Origin: Desulfobulbaceae bacterium
GTDB lineage: Bacteria > Desulfobacterota > Desulfobulbia > Desulfobulbales > VMSU01
DNA length: 64,000 nt
Direction of reading: 5' to 3'
Assembly: GCA_028718985.1 (NCBI GenBank)
Contig: JAQUKQ010000001.1
Coordinates: forward strand, 16,006-80,005
The position numbers and the translations under genes are program-made. The stretch's first letter is position 1. Each line of letters begins with the position of its first letter. Below the pieces are notes generated by a model. That model was not told where the DNA came from. It made no database searches and saw only the letters and a list, made by a program, of their open reading frames with translations. Positions 34,453 to 54,604 of the stretch are shown here, one piece after another.

Positions 34453-35220
34453 TTACTTCAAGTGACAGGTCAAGCAGAAGTTAGACTTATTGTTTGTTCT
34501 CCACAAGAATCTCTCAGCGTTAGCCTGGTTAGCGGTGTTATGAACATCATGGCAGGTTACACACTCCATTTTGCCACCGTTGAGCAAAGAACCGATGGTA
34601 ACCGTGGTGTTAGGAACCATGATAGTGTTAGGAGAGGCAATCTCGTTATCAGCGCTCTGGACAGTAGCGTAAACAAAGCCCATTGGGTGATGGTTGCTCA
34701 TGTCGCCAGTGCCGCCACCGAAGGCTGCGCTGCCGGTGATGTTACCGTTGGCGGTATTAGCACCTTTGTTAAGGGTAGAGCCGGAGTGCTGAGAGTAAGC
34801 ATCCAAGGCGACAACGCCGTCATGACAGCTCATGCAGAGGAGGGATACGCCGCTCAAGGCATTGCTGCCAGCATTCAGGGTGTGCTGTGAGGTAGAGGCG
34901 TTGCCCATCATGTTGCCGTTGTTGTAAGCGGTAAAGGTCAGGGTGCTCATGTTACGATTCCACAGAGGGCTGTAAGCGCCAACAGCGGTAACGCCGGAAC
35001 CCTGATTGGCCTTCAAGGCGTTATGTGGGTGGTGGCAGAATACGCAGATTCTGGATTGAGCATCACCGGTAGCACCCAGGTCATGCTTGGTGCCAACGAT
35101 ACCAGTGCCGCCAGTACCAGTGCCGGTGACGAGACCGCCATCAGATGATTTTGCGAATGCAGAGGAAGCTGCCAAGGAAACAACACCAATTGCCAATCCA
35201 ACTAATAATGTCTTCTTCAT
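34453..35220 (-). CDS. Exported tetrahaem c-type cytochrome
   Basis: This 255-residue protein has a clear signal peptide (MKKTLLVGLAIGVVSLAASS, cleavage near AFA-KSS) and an AAAGGAGA ribosome site. Four CXXCH haem motifs are present: CVFCH (59-63), CMSCH, CVTCH and CLTCH (249-253), several followed by HDVHN or HPHN patterns typical of doubled-CXXCH domains. It is probably periplasmic or surface-located and carries electrons, with extra His residues as axial ligands. It sits alone between a strong terminator and an upstream sigma-54-like promoter, so it is regulated separately from the other cytochromes. The partner proteins are unknown. Confidence 0.93.
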   Translation of the reverse strand: MKKTLLVGLAIGVVSLAASSAFAKSSDGGLVTGTGTGGTGIVGTKHDLGATGDAQSRICVFCHHPHNALKANQGSGVTAVGAYSPLWNRNMSTLTFTAYNNGNMMGNASTSQHTLNAGSNALSGVSLLCMSCHDGVVALDAYSQHSGSTLNKGANTANGNITGSAAFGGGTGDMSNHHPMGFVYATVQSADNEIASPNTIMVPNTTVTIGSLLNGGKMECVTCHDVHNTANQANAERFLWRTNNKSNFCLTCHLK

Positions 35221-35462: not shown

Positions 35463-37217
35463 CTAAGTCGTGGGGTGATCTGACGACAACGCGCGCCCAT
35501 GTTGTGTTTTTTCCCACTTTTGCCAGGCCCCCTTATAGGCAGATTCTACACCTTCGGCAAAGCGTCTTGTTGCACAGAGGGGCGAGGTGAGGAGCTGGCC
35601 GCGCAGGGAGGCTCCTCGCGGGGCGAGGGCCAAGGGGTCAGAGGCTAAGCGAATGGCGGCATCGATATAGGACTGCTGGGTGTCGGTGATCAGCTCTGGT
35701 CGCCCAAGGGCCTGGAGGATACTGGCGCCAACCCGGCTGGCATGACGATCTCCCCGCAGGGTGAGTACCGGAACGCCCATCCACAGGGCCTCTAAGGTGG
35801 TGGTGGTGCCATTGTAGGGAAAGGTGTCGAGACAGAGATCGATACCATTATATAGGGTAAGGTGCTCTCTTCTGGAGGGGAGGTGGGGAGAAAAACAGAT
35901 TCGTGTCGTATCGATGCCCAGGCGTGTGAAGGTGTTCAGCAGGGAGTTCTGCACCCCGCAGTCGTTAAGGTGTTTGCCTTTCAGCAGCAGGTGAGAGTTG
36001 GGAAGTTTGCGCAAGATCGTGGCCCAGGTGGTCAGCAGGGTGGGGTTCATCTTGGCGGGGTTGTTGAATGAGCCGAAGGTGAACGTTCCGGTGCGTAAGC
36101 TGGGAGGAGGCCCAGGATCGATATCTTCTGCCGGGGGCTGATAGCAGAGAAAACATCCTGGCAGGCGTATGAGTTCTTCGCTATGGCCCTGATCTGCCTC
36201 GCCCGGGGGATCAGTTACCGTGTCAACCAAGCGGTAATCGATGGTGGGCAGGCCGGTGGTGCCAGGGTAGCCCAGCCAGCTGATCTGCACCGGGGCCGGT
36301 TTTTGGGCGAAAACACACAGACGGTTGCCGGTCATGTGACCGGCGAGGTCAATGAGCAGGTCAATGCCATCGCGCTCGATGTTGAGGGCGACGGCCTCGT
36401 CGGAGGCGTGGGTGATATCACGCCAATGATCGCTCAGGCCTTTGATCTCCTCTGTTGCCCAGTCAGGGCGATTGATATCGGCATAGCAGAAGATGTCAAA
36501 TCGCGAGCGGTCGTGGGCCTTGAGCAGCGGGGTAATGAAGTAATAGATGGAGTGCTCACGAAAATCTGGCGAGATATACCCAACTTTCAATTTTCTGGTT
36601 GGATTGACAGCGTTGCGGTGCAGAATTTTTCGATAGAGAGGACGGCCATGGGCTAGCCACCACTGTTTGGCGCTTTGCAGGATCTCTGCAGACGTCGCCG
36701 TGTCAAGATAATGGAGTGCCGAGACAGAGATGCTGTGCAGATGGGAGGAGTCAGGATTGATGGCCAGGGCTTTTTGGAAGTATTCGATGGCCGAGGCCAT
36801 TTGGCCCAATTCGTAGAAGGCCACGCCGATATTGCTCAGGGCATCGACATTCTCGGGCTCGAGCTGCACGGCTCTCTGGTAGCAGGCCAAAGATTCAACG
36901 ATTTTTCCCTGGCTGACCAGGAGGTTACCGAGGTTATAGTGGGCGCTTGCCATCTCTGGGTCAAGAGAGGAGGCCAAGCGGTAATATGATTCGGCCTTGG
37001 CCAGCTCACCCTTGAGGTTGTAGGTCAAACCTAGCTCATGGAGGGCAAAGGCATTGTTTGGGCTAAGACGAAGAACGCTAGTGTAGCAGCTGATCGCCTG
37101 ATCAAGGTCACCACGCCTTTGGGCCTTACCGCCCTTGTCGAGCAGGGAGGCAAGGGCGGAAGCTGCACTGCCGGCCGAGGCCTGCGGACGGTTTTTTTTG
37201 ATTTTTCGCAAACGCAT
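35463..37217 (-). CDS. TPR-containing O-GlcNAc transferase-like protein (GT41/SPINDLY type)
   Basis: This 584-residue protein has about four to five tetratricopeptide repeats (residues about 30-165; for example NPDSSHL-type helices) followed by a GT41 catalytic region. Landmarks are KVGYISPDFREHSIYYFITPLL, LIDLAGHMTGNRLCVFAQKP, PVQISWLGYPGTTGLPTIDY, TFGSFNNPAKMNP and DTFPYNGTTTTLEALWMGVPV. Such enzymes glycosylate Ser/Thr of proteins, including flagellins and adhesins in some bacteria. There is no signal peptide, so it acts in the cytoplasm. It lies downstream of the NosL-like gene and the 24-haem cytochrome gene on the same strand, which may place it in that transcript. The target is unknown. 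Confidence 0.9.
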   Translation of the reverse strand: MRLRKIKKNRPQASAGSAASALASLLDKGGKAQRRGDLDQAISCYTSVLRLSPNNAFALHELGLTYNLKGELAKAESYYRLASSLDPEMASAHYNLGNLLVSQGKIVESLACYQRAVQLEPENVDALSNIGVAFYELGQMASAIEYFQKALAINPDSSHLHSISVSALHYLDTATSAEILQSAKQWWLAHGRPLYRKILHRNAVNPTRKLKVGYISPDFREHSIYYFITPLLKAHDRSRFDIFCYADINRPDWATEEIKGLSDHWRDITHASDEAVALNIERDGIDLLIDLAGHMTGNRLCVFAQKPAPVQISWLGYPGTTGLPTIDYRLVDTVTDPPGEADQGHSEELIRLPGCFLCYQPPAEDIDPGPPPSLRTGTFTFGSFNNPAKMNPTLLTTWATILRKLPNSHLLLKGKHLNDCGVQNSLLNTFTRLGIDTTRICFSPHLPSRREHLTLYNGIDLCLDTFPYNGTTTTLEALWMGVPVLTLRGDRHASRVGASILQALGRPELITDTQQSYIDAAIRLASDPLALAPRGASLRGQLLTSPLCATRRFAEGVESAYKGAWQKWEKTQHGRALSSDHPTT

Positions 37218-37255: not shown

Positions 37256-37711
37256 CTATTTTACCTTCAGGCGCAGCACTTCCTGATAGGTGAATTTTTT
37301 GCCGGGTCCTTTTTCGGCAAGAAATTGGTCGGCGTCGGCGGCAGAGGTGAAGGCTATCAGGCCAGAGCCCATTGGTGATGTGATGGCAGGCGACTGGACA
37401 AAGGTAGCTTTGCTGATTGGAATGGCCGTTAAGGTTTTATAATCGTAAACACGGGCTGCGGCGTCAAATGCCCCTTGCCCGGAAGAGCACTGTTTGTCTC
37501 GCCACTTAAGGCCGCAGATGATGTCGTCGAACAATATCTTTTTCGACTGTGGCCGGTGGGTAACCGAAAAAGGAGTGACGGTCTTGACCTCTTTGAAGGA
37601 GCGCTTTGCGCAAGGGGCCACTCCCTGTGCATCTTCGGCGCAAAGGCCAGTGGAGGAGAAAACAAGAATGAGCAGCAGGGAGGCAGCAAGGGGTATTTTT
37701 TGTTTATTCAT
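37256..37711 (-). CDS. Exported NosL-like protein
   Basis: This 151-residue protein starts at an ATG with CAGGAAA upstream; longer forms would run into the cytochrome gene. A signal peptide (IPLAASLLLILVFSSTGLCA) is followed by a domain with the NosL pattern: DAAARVYDYKTLTAIPISKATFV, then SPAITSPMGSGLIAFTSAADADQFLAEKG and a final FTYQEVL. NosL proteins are copper-binding accessory proteins of nitrous oxide reductase, but relatives without nosZ exist. Cysteines and methionine (IICGL, SPMG) could bind a metal. It lies 28 bases after the 24-haem cytochrome gene and probably shares its transcript, suggesting a role in metal or haem handling for that system. That role is inferred. Confidence 0.8.
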   Translation of the reverse strand: MNKQKIPLAASLLLILVFSSTGLCAEDAQGVAPCAKRSFKEVKTVTPFSVTHRPQSKKILFDDIICGLKWRDKQCSSGQGAFDAAARVYDYKTLTAIPISKATFVQSPAITSPMGSGLIAFTSAADADQFLAEKGPGKKFTYQEVLRLKVK

Positions 37712-37739: not shown

Positions 37740-40700
37740 TTATGGGCACCAAATGGCGTTGTTACCACCGCCATAGTCATCGTTGCCCATTTTTGCACCG
37801 TGGGCGTGACAGGTAAGGCAAGAATTGTAGCCAGATCCGATCAAATGCGCTCCTGAGGAGGTGGCCTTGGCCCAATTCACATGGCATTTGCTGCAAAAAC
37901 TCGTCCATCCGCTAAATTGTTGGGGATCGCCATTATGGCTAGGTCCATCAATGATGACCGGGCCCCTGCTGCCGTGGGTACAGTCAGGAGGTGAGGCGGC
38001 TGGATCAGAGCAACCTAATACTTGGTCTGACCATCGCCGACTACCATCATCGACAAACGGGGTGCCGTCAACAAAATCTCTGATCATGTAGGGGTTACCG
38101 ATGGGATTGTCTAGCGTATAGGAACCATGAGGGTCGTGGCAGACAATACAATCCAGTTCGTATGAAGGTATCTGCGGGGTCTGCACGTATCCTGGCCAAG
38201 TTCTTTTTGTTCCTCCTCCATGTGGGGAATTGCTCCAAGACATATCGACATGCCAAGGCGCCTGAGAGTAAGAGGTGCATTGATCGATGCCGGCAAGGAT
38301 AGAATAGCCGCTGTTTAAAACAAGTGTTCCGCACTTATTATTATCGTTGTCAAAGGCATCGCACCGTAAATCCATAGGGACATAAGGTCCATAGGCATAG
38401 CCATCGTCGCAGTAGTTGTCTACTTTAAATGAGTCTGCTAGATCTTTTGAAACACATTTATCCATGCAATCATAGACATCGATAGTTGTAGGGTTATTGT
38501 CTGCATCACAATTGGAGCCCGGAGGATGAATCCAATTTTTTTGTGGCCCAGTTACGCCGACCGGGAAGTTAGGGTGTCGCGGGTCATCGCCACCGGCGTG
38601 GCAGGAGAGGCAGAAATTGTTTATGGTTCCGGTCCAGGCAGAGCTTGTGTTGTGCGGATTGGCGAGTTTTTGCGAAGCCGAGGCGCTATGGGCGCCATGG
38701 CAATTGGTGCATTCAAGCTTGGCTCCGGTTTTATTTTGATCATCTCGACTCAAAGGGTGATGGCTTAAGACCATTCTCTTCGTACCTTCCGATCCCATAC
38801 CCATATCACCATATTTTTCGGCGACATTAAGAGAGCCTTTAAATCGGGTCGCCACATCCGGCGGTGCATTGCCGTTGGCGAAAGGGTCTTTAGGATTGGG
38901 TAGGCGGGTCGCCCCATCGGCGTCATGGCAGGACATGCAGAAATCCGAGATGTCGTCAAATTGATGTTCATTGGTGTTGATGGCCTCCAGGTCGTTGACC
39001 TTGGCACCACGATAGAGGACATTCCAGTCGCCATCGATCAAGACGATCTGGCCGCTCATGTGGTCGGTAACGTCGTGGCAGACGCGGCAGTCAATGAAGT
39101 CGAGGTCTTTGCCGAAATGACCATGGGCGCTGCCATTGGTCTCGGTCTGGGCTGGGAACTCGGGAGAAATGGCGCGGCGAGGGGTAGCATGGGTACTTGC
39201 TTGGCTGGTGTTGTGACAGTTCAGGCAAGTGCCTTCCGAGAAGGCGGCTTTTTCGTTCACAGCACCACTTTGCTGGTCGAGGACGCTGGTATGGGTATGG
39301 CAGTCGGTGCACTTGCGTCCTTCTGGGTCATTTTTGCCGTGCTCATCACCTGAGGTGTTGGTGTAGTGGAAGGGGTGTCCGTAGCGCAGTTGAACAGAGT
39401 GACAGACGTTGCAGATGCCAGTAAAGGGGGCACTCGTCGATGCGTAGCCGTTGTTGCCGTTTCCTCGGTCGGTAAAGACAACGGGAGGGCTGAGTTCCAA
39501 GGTCTTACCGGTGTTGATGTCGGATTTTTTCGCAACCTTGTCATGCACCATCTTCAAGTTCGAGTCGCCATGCGGGTCATGGCAGTCCCAGCAGAATTGA
39601 CCCCCGGCACCTGGGAGAAACTCATGGTAGCTGTCAACTTTGTCGGCTGCCAAGCTGTTGATTGAAGGCAAGGATCCAGCAGCATCGGGGTCATAGCCTG
39701 TCGAGCCAGTTTTGTGGCAGACCCAGCACACATTGTTTGGTGTTGCTGTGCTGAAATTTGCCAGGCGCATGGGATTTGCCTCATTGTAATGCCCGACGTT
39801 TTTATCGTGGCAGTACTCGCAGGACAGCCCGGCACCTGGATTGCCAAGACCATCACCGGTTGTCAATTCATCGTACGGCGTTGGTTCCGTAGCGGGGCGA
39901 CCATGGCCGGTTGTCATCCATTGTGTTGAACTCACTTTGGCAAGCGTTTGGTTGGTGGAGAAATCATCCAAATCGGCAGTTGCAAGGTGACAATCACTAC
40001 ACCCCAGCTTTGTTCCCCAGGTGGCGTTTGAGCCACCGTGGCAGCCAACAGAAATGTTGGAGCAGGTATGTGTCTCCGGATCATAACTAAGGCTCAGGCC
40101 TGGTTTTGGGGAGATATCGTAGCTGTTATTGGTGTGCGCACCGCTTCCGGGTGCGGGACCAGCGCCAATTAGCGAGATGCCGTCAGTAGTGGTGGCATAG
40201 TGGCAGTTGTCGCAGGTATAGCCGCTGTTTTTATGGGTTTGGTGGCTATTGGCCTTTGGTGATCCGCTTTCATAGGTCGGAGGGACATTATGGCAGCCAT
40301 CACAACCAATTGGATAGGGCTGTGCTCCTTGCCAACCAGCCTTTAATGCTTGCAGGGTTAGGTCAGGGAGGTTGTTGCCGACATTTGGCGGGTTATTGCC
40401 GTCGGCTGGGGAGAGATCGGTGCCGTCATGGTGACAGTTGGCGCAGACCACAGTCGTTGCGACATGCTCGCCATCTTTCAGGACAACATTGCCGGCGGTG
40501 TCGCGGATATTGATTGGATCATGGCAGGCAGAGCACTTGATCTCCAAGGCAAGGTGTTCTTCGTGCTTGGAGTAGGTGAAGGTGCCATTACCGTTATCTC
40601 TTTGGTTTGTATGGCATTCTGCGCAGCCGGAACCGCCATCGCTACCGTGGCCAAAGGCAACCTTGTGGCTATGACAGATGGTGCACTGCAGGGTTGTGGC

Positions 40701-41669
40701 ATTGGCAGCACCATAGACATCGATATGGGGGTCAGGGGTCACATCAGAGACAAAGTGCAGGGTTTGGCTGTGGCAGACCTGGCAAACACCGTTGATGCCG
40801 TCGGCGGCATCGTTGTCAATAAAGCCCCCTTTGCCATCGAAGAATTTTACATCGACCGGTGTAAAGACACCATCCCGATCGGGATCTACGGCAACCTGCT
40901 TCTTAATCAGTTGGCCGTAGATCAGACCAAAACCCTTGTCGACGAAGGACGCTGCAATCGTCCCTTGCACTGAAATAGTTCCGGTGCCGGGGGTTTGGCT
41001 GTTTTCAATGGCGGCGGTGATTTTGTAGGTGTTTTCAAGACCGTTGGTGCTAACCACTAATAGAAGCCCTCGTCCTGGGGCGGTTTTGTTGGTCCAGCCG
41101 GCAGGGTTAGACCAGGCGGCTTTGGTTTTGGATTGATTCAAGGTGTACTGGATTGTACTCCCGTTGTTGGTAATGGCGCTGATTGTTCCTTGGGCCAGGT
41201 ATAATTCTGTATCGGGAACGGTCGGATCATTAACCCACTCCCTGAGTTGCAGTTGAAAATGGGGGTCGTGGCAGTCAAGGCAGCTACGACCCCAGGGCGA
41301 GATATCAGCTCGATGTAAACTGCCAAGGGCACCGCTTGAGTGGGTGACCGCCCGGGGGGCAGTCCCGTTGGCGCCGTGGCATGCGGCGCAAAGCAACTCG
41401 ATGAGATTTGCTCTGTCTGGCGCAGAGTTTGAAGGGGAATAGCGCCACCAGAGGGAGTAGGAGTGGCAGCTCTGGCAGAAAACGCCACCGGCCGTGTTGT
41501 GGGGCGCATCAAGAACTTCGGCATGACTCTTTCCCGAGAGAGGCAGGAAGAAAAGACAGGCCAAAAAAACAACCGCTAGCTGCCGCATGACTCTTTTGGG
41601 TAGATTTTTGCCGTTTGCTAAACCGTTGCCTGTAGAGCGTGCTGCTATCGGGAGGGTTGGATTGGCCAT
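37740..41669 (-). CDS. Giant multihaem c-type cytochrome with 24 CXXCH motifs
   Basis: This 1309-residue exported protein starts behind CAGGAAA, with a long n-region before the hydrophobic core (LAVVFLACLFFLPLSG); an internal ATG at 41588 (MRQLAVV) would give a shorter signal peptide. I count 24 CXXCH motifs from CQSCH (65-69) to CLTCH (1284-1288), plus one CX6CH (CSNISVGCH, near 535). A haem-poor beta-rich insert sits at about 150-300, between the third and fourth motifs. Residues about 1053-1113 form a Cys- and Asp-rich module resembling a Notch LNR repeat. The first 330 residues are clearly paralogous to the 808-residue cytochrome at 52178. Such proteins typically conduct electrons across or outside the outer membrane. 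A strong promoter and long leader precede it; NosL-like and OGT-like genes follow. Confidence 0.94.
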   Translation of the reverse strand: MANPTLPIAARSTGNGLANGKNLPKRVMRQLAVVFLACLFFLPLSGKSHAEVLDAPHNTAGGVFCQSCHSYSLWWRYSPSNSAPDRANLIELLCAACHGANGTAPRAVTHSSGALGSLHRADISPWGRSCLDCHDPHFQLQLREWVNDPTVPDTELYLAQGTISAITNNGSTIQYTLNQSKTKAAWSNPAGWTNKTAPGRGLLLVVSTNGLENTYKITAAIENSQTPGTGTISVQGTIAASFVDKGFGLIYGQLIKKQVAVDPDRDGVFTPVDVKFFDGKGGFIDNDAADGINGVCQVCHSQTLHFVSDVTPDPHIDVYGAANATTLQCTICHSHKVAFGHGSDGGSGCAECHTNQRDNGNGTFTYSKHEEHLALEIKCSACHDPINIRDTAGNVVLKDGEHVATTVVCANCHHDGTDLSPADGNNPPNVGNNLPDLTLQALKAGWQGAQPYPIGCDGCHNVPPTYESGSPKANSHQTHKNSGYTCDNCHYATTTDGISLIGAGPAPGSGAHTNNSYDISPKPGLSLSYDPETHTCSNISVGCHGGSNATWGTKLGCSDCHLATADLDDFSTNQTLAKVSSTQWMTTGHGRPATEPTPYDELTTGDGLGNPGAGLSCEYCHDKNVGHYNEANPMRLANFSTATPNNVCWVCHKTGSTGYDPDAAGSLPSINSLAADKVDSYHEFLPGAGGQFCWDCHDPHGDSNLKMVHDKVAKKSDINTGKTLELSPPVVFTDRGNGNNGYASTSAPFTGICNVCHSVQLRYGHPFHYTNTSGDEHGKNDPEGRKCTDCHTHTSVLDQQSGAVNEKAAFSEGTCLNCHNTSQASTHATPRRAISPEFPAQTETNGSAHGHFGKDLDFIDCRVCHDVTDHMSGQIVLIDGDWNVLYRGAKVNDLEAINTNEHQFDDISDFCMSCHDADGATRLPNPKDPFANGNAPPDVATRFKGSLNVAEKYGDMGMGSEGTKRMVLSHHPLSRDDQNKTGAKLECTNCHGAHSASASQKLANPHNTSSAWTGTINNFCLSCHAGGDDPRHPNFPVGVTGPQKNWIHPPGSNCDADNNPTTIDVYDCMDKCVSKDLADSFKVDNYCDDGYAYGPYVPMDLRCDAFDNDNNKCGTLVLNSGYSILAGIDQCTSYSQAPWHVDMSWSNSPHGGGTKRTWPGYVQTPQIPSYELDCIVCHDPHGSYTLDNPIGNPYMIRDFVDGTPFVDDGSRRWSDQVLGCSDPAASPPDCTHGSRGPVIIDGPSHNGDPQQFSGWTSFCSKCHVNWAKATSSGAHLIGSGYNSCLTCHAHGAKMGNDDYGGGNNAIWCP

Positions 41670-41893: not shown

Positions 41894-41921
41894 ATAATAA
41901 TAGATCTGTAGGTCATGTCAA
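41894..41921 (-). promoter_or_regulatory. Sigma-70 promoter of the 24-haem cytochrome gene
   Basis: On the minus strand TTGACA (41916-41921) and TATTAT (41894-41899) are separated by 16 bases. The -35 matches consensus fully and the -10 is one base off, an unusually strong promoter compared with the rest of the window. Confidence 0.65.
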
Positions 41922-52177: not shown

Positions 52178-54604
52178 TTAATGATTCAGAGCGCCTGGGG
52201 GTGGAGCGACGTTGTATTTTGGATCTGCGTGGCAGGCGCTGCAGTTGTTACCTGTGGTAGGAGGTTTGCCGGTACCCTTGCCCGCTGCGTTGCCGATCAA
52301 CCTTCCATCTTCGGCATGGCAAAGGTCACATCTCATTTTGTGGGTATTCCAAATTGGGTCGTAGCCGGTATGGCAGGTATAGCAATTGGTGCCTGCAGCT
52401 GTAACTTGCAGATCGTGGTTAATTGCATTTTTATGCGCATTGAAGGTTCCGGCAATGGTTGTGTGACACTCTGTACAGGTGTTTGTAGTATGGCCTTCAT
52501 GGCCGGCAGCGCTGCCTTTCAAGGTGTGAATCAAATCGGTGCTCAAGCCGACGTGACAGGCAAGGCAGTTGCCATTATGCACCACGTCAACCGTCTCTCC
52601 GGTGTGGCAGGAGGTGCAGTTGCCCTCGGCATTAGCGGTGACATAGCTGGTACCCATGGCAGAGTGGTTGACCTGTGGGTGCGGTCCCGCCGCTTGGCTG
52701 GTGTGACAGACTGTGCAGTCACCGCCGCCTGTGTGACCCGCGGCGCTGTTTACAAGGGTGCCATATTGGTCATGGCAGGTGGCGCAACCGAGTCTGCCGT
52801 GCATGCCATTGATCAGATCAGAATCGGCATGGCATACGACGCAGGTGGCGGTTGGAGTCACTTCCGTGGTGTGCGGGGTGTTGGTTTTGTGGACATAAAA
52901 ATTCGTGTGACAATTCATGCAATCGCCAGGGCCATGGGCGAGGGCAGAACCCTTGAGAAGACCGGTAGGCGAGGTGTGGCAGATGCCGCAACTCCAGTTG
53001 TGGGTATCAGAAACTGGGTCACCAGCATGACAGGCTGTGGTGCACTGTGGTGTAGCCACGACCTGTCCGGTGTGGTCATTTGACTTGGGGTGGACAAAGA
53101 AGTTGGCCGCGATCTCAGTATGGCAGTGTTTGCAGTCGCCTTTGCCATGAAGCGCCGCTCGACCGATCAAAGCGCCGCTACCTGAGTAGGTGCCATCTCC
53201 GGCATTATAGGTCAGGCTGTGACAGGTGTCGCAAGGGCTGCCATCGACGCCATGAATGTCGTTGATAAGATTCTTGTTGCTGTGGAAGTGGCAGCTAACG
53301 CAGTCGGGCGATGCATCCACCTGGCCAGTATGGTCGTTGGCCTTGGGGTGAGCGGTAAAGGCTGCGGCAATCGTGCTGTGGCAATCGTAACAGGTGCCAG
53401 TGGCCCGAGATTGACCTGAAGCGGTAGGCCATTTTGTACTCGGGAAGGGTGTTTTCAGCTCTGGCGGCGAGAGGTGACAGTCGGTACAGTTGCCGTTATG
53501 TGTTCCGGAGATAATGTCGGCTTGGTTATGGCAGTTGGCACAGGTGGTGCCGAGATTAGAGATAAAGGTGTGATCGGCGTTGGTTGGTCGGAAACCAAGG
53601 GAGGTCGAGTGACAGGGTATGCAAGACACCGAACGGTTGTGGGGAATGGCCGCGATCCTTGGTGTGGGGACTACTTGCGAAGCGCGATCGGGCTGCATGC
53701 CGTCTTCGTTATAGTACTTGGTCTTAGTGTGGCAGACCTGGCAGATGCCTTGAGCCGGGGTTGTGACGGGATCGGCGGCGCCGCCGATGATGTTGTCGTC
53801 GTAGGCAATTGACGCGTCAAAAAACTTGACGTCTTTGTTGCCGGAGTTTGGAGTGGCGATAGTTTTCTTAATCAATTGCCCATAGATAATGGCAAAGTTG
53901 GTATCCGCGGTGTTATAGCTTACGGGAAGTTGGCCCTGCAGAGTGATTGAGCCTGTTCCGTTAGCGGTACCGGCAATGATGGCTGTTGTCTCACTTGTTG
54001 CGTTGATTTCGAAGGTGCTTTGCGTGTTATCCAGGATGACCAAGATAAGACCGCGTCCAGGGGTACTCTTTTCTGCCCAGAGGGCCGGGTTGATCCAGTT
54101 GAGGTGAGCATCGGCATTTTTGTACGAGAGGGTCGTTGTGTTCGTGCTGCTGTTTGGCAAAACAGAACCGGCACTGATGGTACCTGTCGCCAGGTAGAGA
54201 TTGCTGCTCAGGGCAGGCTGGGTGTCGAGCCAGGTGAGTTGTTGTTGATAATGCGGGTTGTGGCAGTCAACGCACTTTGTACTCCAGGTGCCGAGATAGC
54301 CGTCATGGATATCAGCCATTGACTCCCAGTTGTGACCAATCTTGTTTGGGGCATAGCCGCCCGGGGCATGACACTTGTTGCAGACGCCATCGGTAATCTG
54401 ATTGTACGGCGTGCTGCTGTTGATAGCAGGGGAGAACTTCCACCAGAGAGAGTAAGCGTGGCAGTCTGAGCATTTTATGCCGTTGGTGTCATTGTGCGGG
54501 GCATCAATGACCGAGGCCCCGGCCGAGGTGCAAAGCCATAAGCCAAAGACCAATGCCCCTTGTAGAACGACAAGTTTTTTTAAAAATTTTAGTTGCTTAC
54601 TCAT
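52178..54604 (-). CDS. Giant multihaem c-type cytochrome with 22 CXXCH and one CX3CH
   Basis: This 808-residue exported protein has a signal peptide (LKKLVVLQGALVFGLWLCTS, cleavage near SAGA) and a strong AGGAGGGG site. I count 22 CXXCH motifs from CSDCH to CSACH and one CX3CH (CTTACH, near 521-526). The N-terminal 300 residues match the 1309-residue cytochrome at 37740 (VIDAPHN, CHAYSLWW, STPGRGLILVI, IYGQLIKK, VKFFD, GICQVCH). The rest is a chain of short repeated modules; GTCYDCHSTIAAAFTAHPKA and GDCKHCHTEIAANFFVHPKS (each followed by NDHTGQV) are two copies. It likely works as a periplasmic or extracellular electron conduit. A Cys-rich HTH regulator gene lies directly upstream. Confidence 0.94.
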   Translation of the reverse strand: MSKQLKFLKKLVVLQGALVFGLWLCTSAGASVIDAPHNDTNGIKCSDCHAYSLWWKFSPAINSSTPYNQITDGVCNKCHAPGGYAPNKIGHNWESMADIHDGYLGTWSTKCVDCHNPHYQQQLTWLDTQPALSSNLYLATGTISAGSVLPNSSTNTTTLSYKNADAHLNWINPALWAEKSTPGRGLILVILDNTQSTFEINATSETTAIIAGTANGTGSITLQGQLPVSYNTADTNFAIIYGQLIKKTIATPNSGNKDVKFFDASIAYDDNIIGGAADPVTTPAQGICQVCHTKTKYYNEDGMQPDRASQVVPTPRIAAIPHNRSVSCIPCHSTSLGFRPTNADHTFISNLGTTCANCHNQADIISGTHNGNCTDCHLSPPELKTPFPSTKWPTASGQSRATGTCYDCHSTIAAAFTAHPKANDHTGQVDASPDCVSCHFHSNKNLINDIHGVDGSPCDTCHSLTYNAGDGTYSGSGALIGRAALHGKGDCKHCHTEIAANFFVHPKSNDHTGQVVATPQCTTACHAGDPVSDTHNWSCGICHTSPTGLLKGSALAHGPGDCMNCHTNFYVHKTNTPHTTEVTPTATCVVCHADSDLINGMHGRLGCATCHDQYGTLVNSAAGHTGGGDCTVCHTSQAAGPHPQVNHSAMGTSYVTANAEGNCTSCHTGETVDVVHNGNCLACHVGLSTDLIHTLKGSAAGHEGHTTNTCTECHTTIAGTFNAHKNAINHDLQVTAAGTNCYTCHTGYDPIWNTHKMRCDLCHAEDGRLIGNAAGKGTGKPPTTGNNCSACHADPKYNVAPPPGALNH

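Follow-up and report, generated by a model that had tools for sequence, protein, structure and literature searches.

A giant exported multihaem cytochrome with a probable CX6CH haem site, encoded near an OmcE-type gene in an uncultured Desulfobulbaceae bacterium

The cytochromes OmcE, OmcS and OmcZ have plain signal peptides, and OmcZ, which carries 8 haems, polymerises. Haem 1 of OmcZ is attached via cysteines that are separated by a loop of 14 residues (PMC9473688). An 86-motif cytochrome has been reported as expressed in Desulfuromonas acetexigens (PMC12133095), and the periplasmic PCC3 cytochromes, with 21-27 haems, may according to a published description span the periplasm (PMC10734462). 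Here, we analysed a giant multihaem cytochrome gene of an uncultured Desulfobulbaceae bacterium, found at 37740-41669 in a 64,000-nucleotide stretch of contig JAQUKQ010000001.1 (hereafter the window, in which all features described lie on the minus strand). Taking all our observations together, we favour a Sec-exported c-type cytochrome whose conserved core lies between an N-terminal module and a C-terminal one that is lineage-specific; a CX6CH motif would hold a 25th haem, and the protein would most likely act at the cell's outer face, as a multi-haem wire or capacitor. We put the probability of this reading as a whole at about two in three.

The 1309-aa chain that the gene encodes has exactly 24 CXXCH motifs plus a single CX6CH motif (CSNISVGCH, aa 536-544, positions 40038-40064), as the initial annotation had counted. 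Given the 61 Cys and 69 His of the chain, only ~0.15 CXXCH would be expected (1309 x 0.0466^2 x 0.0527), so that the 24 motifs are not due to chance. The expectation for CX6CH is likewise 0.15; a lone CX6CH is thus unremarkable by itself, and its meaning rests on homology and on its position within a conserved domain. The export proposed earlier is borne out by a predicted Sec signal peptide (aa 1-50, 41520-41669), read directly from the sequence as a hydrophobic core followed by SHA and a Glu at aa 50/51, with cleavage expected after SHA; an alternative start is possible at Met28. A lipoprotein reading at Cys38 was rejected, because this residue lies inside the hydrophobic core, which runs on past it, and has no convincing lipobox. 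About 225 bases ahead of the start codon lies a sigma-70-type promoter-like site (TTGACA-16-TATTAT, 41894-41921), a consensus match only, with 11/12 positions matching. PF14522, PF14537 and PF09699 scored over their Pfam cut-offs, and the haem regions fall into Cytochrome_C7, Cytochrom_c3_2 and Paired_CXXCH_1; a Bacteriocin_II match stayed below its cut-off and was dismissed as chance. The CXXCH count, the signal peptide and the Pfam matches together identify the product as a predicted multihaem c-type cytochrome.

A haem number of 24 or 25 had been placed at the upper end for cytochromes, which is wrong. Single chains encoded in the same genome carry 65 (L106, 2151-10973), at least 45 (L105, 1-4512), 42 (L111, 2520-5555), 31 (L104) and 31 (L107) CXXCH motifs, and the published 86-haem cytochrome exceeds them all. 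Our protein is of ordinary size for its family of giant cytochromes, and such haem richness is ordinary in this organism. The 42-haem protein starts like a lipoprotein (LAAC). The window also holds a second giant at 52178-54604, with 808 aa, 22 CXXCH and one CX3CH (CTTACH), which has the N-terminal module too.

This N-terminal module (aa 50-357, 40599-41522) contains haems 1-6 and an inserted beta-rich domain and is common to more than 35 giant cytochromes; there are ten related matches in the genome itself. Foldseek searches with it returned only generic small beta-barrels (e.g. ribosomal L35Ae), with no functional hint. The core module (aa 370-830, 39180-40562) is common to giant cytochromes of Geobacterales and Nitrospirota; of 297 genomes from the phylum, 47 gave matches to it, weaker, partial ones included. 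An AlphaFold model of the core (pLDDT 39) was set aside. By searching the PDB, we found no chain matching the giant at E 0.01, and profile searches gave weak generic haem-motif hits only; weak matches of the core-module profile to reaction-centre cytochromes were rejected because they were driven by CXXCH spacing, and none of the structures searched covers the CX6CH-bearing domain. The C-terminal module (aa 1030-1309, 37743-38582) was confidently found in 2 of the 146 genomes of the order, namely this one and G006, with marginal matches (E 3e-4 to 9e-4) in another two genomes and in an additional G006 frame. Within its limits lies a Cys-rich insert (aa 1068-1113, 38331-38468), set in a cytochrome and reading CMDKC...DNYCDDG...LRCDAFDNDNNKC; it has no Pfam match, and its resemblance to a Lin-12/Notch-repeat-like disulfide domain is visual only. 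The G006 version, GDTYCDAGFYGLDLTCSTFNYDDGDC, is closer to the Notch/LNR type.

The genes downstream of the giant suggest where it may work. Directly downstream is an exported NosL-family protein (37256-37711; PF05573, E 5e-6), followed by a TPR protein with a GT41 (O-GlcNAc-transferase-type) domain (35463-37217) and, 2.5 kb from the giant and on the same strand, by a homologue of OmcE, a candidate nanowire subunit (34453-35220). The latter matches OmcE (7TFS, E 3.9e-16, aa 30-255) over nearly its full length and has 4 haem motifs. In G006, which belongs to another genus, the orthologue of the giant (G006a) is 54% identical by the genome search, retains all 24 CXXCH motifs and sits in a series of cytochromes with 4, 4, 7, 7, 5 and 13 haems (the last with a SPOR domain), then GT41, a 12-haem cytochrome and an OmcE homologue; the TPR-GT41 homologue of that cluster is 38.5% identical to ours. 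The same cluster is present in our genome on contig C34, without a giant. There (L112 826-13306, G000), cytochromes of 4, 4, 7, 7, 5, 13 (SPOR) and 12 haems are accompanied by a class A penicillin-binding protein, a GT41 glycosyltransferase and a HAMP-like protein, a content that suggests peptidoglycan anchoring and glycosylated cytochromes.

Related giants adjoin OmcE-like genes as well. Three Nitrospirota loci (L007, L015 and L020) have core-module giants placed after OmcE-like genes and NHL or FG-GAP propellers; a PpiC-type isomerase is also encoded at L007 and L020. In G011 (L162), core-module giants adjoin an OmcE-like protein. This last protein (L162 9972-11729, minus strand) has 11 haem motifs where 4 are usual and lies beside two core-module cytochromes and upstream lipoprotein genes. 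An OmcE-like gene was found near only 5 of 24 core-module loci, G006 being a sixth case over a greater distance, so that the association does not hold for all of them. Even so, the OmcE homologue and GT41 gene downstream, the orthologue inside a cytochrome cluster and the related giants next to OmcE-like genes favour a putative electron wire, in the envelope or outside the cell, that would work together with OmcE-type nanowires. Electrons would then pass between a cytochrome cluster of the outer membrane or periplasm on one side and, on the other, OmcE-type nanowires outside the cell or other acceptors.

The gene context also has to be weighed against a periplasmic role, in which the giant would store electrons or span the periplasm in the manner of the 21-27-haem PCC3 proteins and would not be extracellular. 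Neither a lipobox nor an outer-membrane anchor was seen in its sequence, and the neighbouring cluster in G006 includes a SPOR-domain cytochrome and a peptidoglycan synthase. Arguing for the outside are the OmcE-type nanowire genes, the NHL propellers and the GT41 glycosyltransferase, which are its nearest neighbours by function, and plain signal peptides are also those of OmcE, OmcS and OmcZ. An adjacent porin and extracellular cytochrome would be expected of a PCC3-type protein; general annotation of the window recognised no porin gene next to the giant, which weighs against both readings. We regard a periplasmic protein as the less likely of the two. Somewhat less plausible still is that the giant comes from a redundant pool of paralogues, has no specific role and adjoins the OmcE gene incidentally. 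The ten related matches in the genome, the lack of an orthologue in three congeners and the fast diversification of cytochromes (PMC12977616) are in line with such a pool, but an orthologue with all 24 motifs conserved in another genus and a co-location with OmcE repeated in two phyla argue against it.

Then, we examined the CX6CH motif. First, it occupies the CX4CH site of a TIGR01904-type CxxxxCH/CxxCH domain (aa 512-569, 39963-40136). The profile match reached 30.5 bits in the local frame and 23.3 bits in a whole-protein scan, for a curated cut-off of 27 bits; the local frame thus passes the cut-off while its first motif is CX6CH and not CxxxxCH, and we consider that the domain works like TIGR01904 without being a textbook member. 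Position within this domain excludes chance as the origin of the motif. Second, since orthologue G006a reads CSNISCH at this site (a second G006 relative, G006b, reads CGSVSCH), two extra residues, VG, stand inserted ahead of the second Cys in the window protein. A sequencing error is unlikely because the difference amounts to 6 bases, in frame, within a long open frame. Third, in an alignment of 22 homologues drawn from Geobacterales, Nitrospirota and Desulfobacterota, only the window sequence spaced the two cysteines by six residues; Cys536, Cys543, His544, the following W-G and the preceding His512 (40134-40136; column H143 of alignment A1) were invariant. We infer that Cys536 and Cys543 are most likely thioether-linked to haem, with His544 as the proximal and probably His512 as the distal axial ligand, the CX4CH site having been enlarged by VG. 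Co-loss of His512 with a broken motif gave a Fisher p of 0.10, with few broken cases.

Widened motifs are not confined to this protein. Among all TIGR01904-like instances that we collected, X was 4 in 191, 3 in 18 and 2 in 19, with rarer spacings of 6 (4 instances), 5 (2), 7 (1) and 9 (1), some of the longer ones belonging to a second site of the core module. Clear variants at the same site, preceded by H-x-N and followed by W, are CSGLGSQCH (L045), CSNTAGPGCH (L043), CNTAANGCH (L127) and CSNVTGCH (L015). A CX9CH motif (CSGAGVSAAGCH) stands at a TIGR01904-like position in L139 (aa 514). The second core-module site lies between GHG...CxxCHD...NP[FY]RL and CxDCHDPHG, in register with these flanking motifs; it reads CXXCH in 40 proteins, CX6CH in 4, CX7CH in 1 and CX4CH in 1. 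The four proteins with CX6CH where their homologues have canonical CXXCH (L131 aa 703, L133 aa 712, L135 aa 1091 and L139 aa 150) represent three families.

Histidine numbers are consistent with these variants binding haem. Across 92 cytochromes, there were 1.37 (0.95-1.76) non-motif His per CX3-7CH and 1.30 (1.22-1.37) per CXXCH; with a chain-length term the figures became 0.70 (0.27-1.22), a less tight estimate, and 1.00, respectively. About one extra His per CX3-7CH, as per CXXCH, is what bis-His haems would be expected to bring. The 14-residue loop at haem 1 of OmcZ shows that long Cys spacing is compatible with haem. Four CcsA-type haem-handling genes (PF01578) were found in the genome.

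The homology to CX4CH, the invariant cysteines and histidines, the recurrence of CX6CH, its replacement of CXXCH elsewhere and the His-per-motif figures thus make 25 haems considerably likelier than 24 on sequence grounds, and the initial suggestion that the CX6CH binds haem very probably holds. That the insertion abolished attachment, leaving the cysteines free or disulfide-bonded and the protein with 24 haems, would fit the absence of VG from every other aligned core-module homologue and the disulfides that ten other non-haem Cys of the C-terminal module make available, but we find it improbable given that both Cys, His544, His512 and the W-G are all retained, that CX5, CX6 and CX7 variants occur in the same surroundings in other proteins and that CX6CH takes the place of CXXCH at the second haem site in four proteins.

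We conclude that CX6CH is a real and recurrent motif, probably haem-bearing, which current counting rules miss; no use of CX5CH or CX6CH as a cytochrome motif was found in the literature searched. If it binds haem, the rule for counting haems in genomes needs widening. In addition, the core module offers a way to recognise, by sequence, a family of giant cytochromes found beside nanowire genes in two phyla, and this family bears on how electrons are transferred from the outer membrane to nanowires. A broader proposal would have CX6CH as a genuine haem c motif that arose repeatedly in giant envelope cytochromes, so that CX2-4CH counts are too low, and the core-module giants as a conserved partner passing electrons between the cytochrome conduit of the cell and OmcE-type nanowires. 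This is tentative, and we would not expect both of its parts to hold together.

In comparison to known systems, the giant scored 46.6 bits against the DmsE/MtrA family TIGR03508, for a cut-off of 192.2 bits, and the OmcA/MtrC family TIGR03507 was not among its NCBIfam matches. Nor does it show the sequence homology to OmcE, OmcS or OmcZ expected of a nanowire subunit: OmcE (PDB 7TFS) is matched by the product of the nearby gene and not by the giant itself. With OmcZ haem 1 the likeness would be functional, in a haem c on widely spaced cysteines (PMC9473688), with no sequence match found and a loop of 14 residues against 6. The 86-haem cytochrome of Desulfuromonas acetexigens resembles it in general description, being of high molecular weight, from a member of the Desulfobacterota and expressed during extracellular electron transfer (PMC12133095), with 86 motifs against 24-25. 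The TIGR01904 cytochromes of Geobacter have in common with the giant the site and the residues around it (H-x-N, C-Xn-CH, W-G, CXXCH), matched above the cut-off; most homologues have CX4CH, whereas the giant has CX6CH, and its chain has one such domain where theirs form long tandem series. Finally, the core-module giants of Geomonas, Geobacter, Citrifermentans and Nitrospirota MAGs (L001-L025) differ by the C-terminal module, which is confined to the window protein and its G006 orthologue, but over aa 370-830 they are 35-45% identical to the giant, and the haem and His positions there are invariant.
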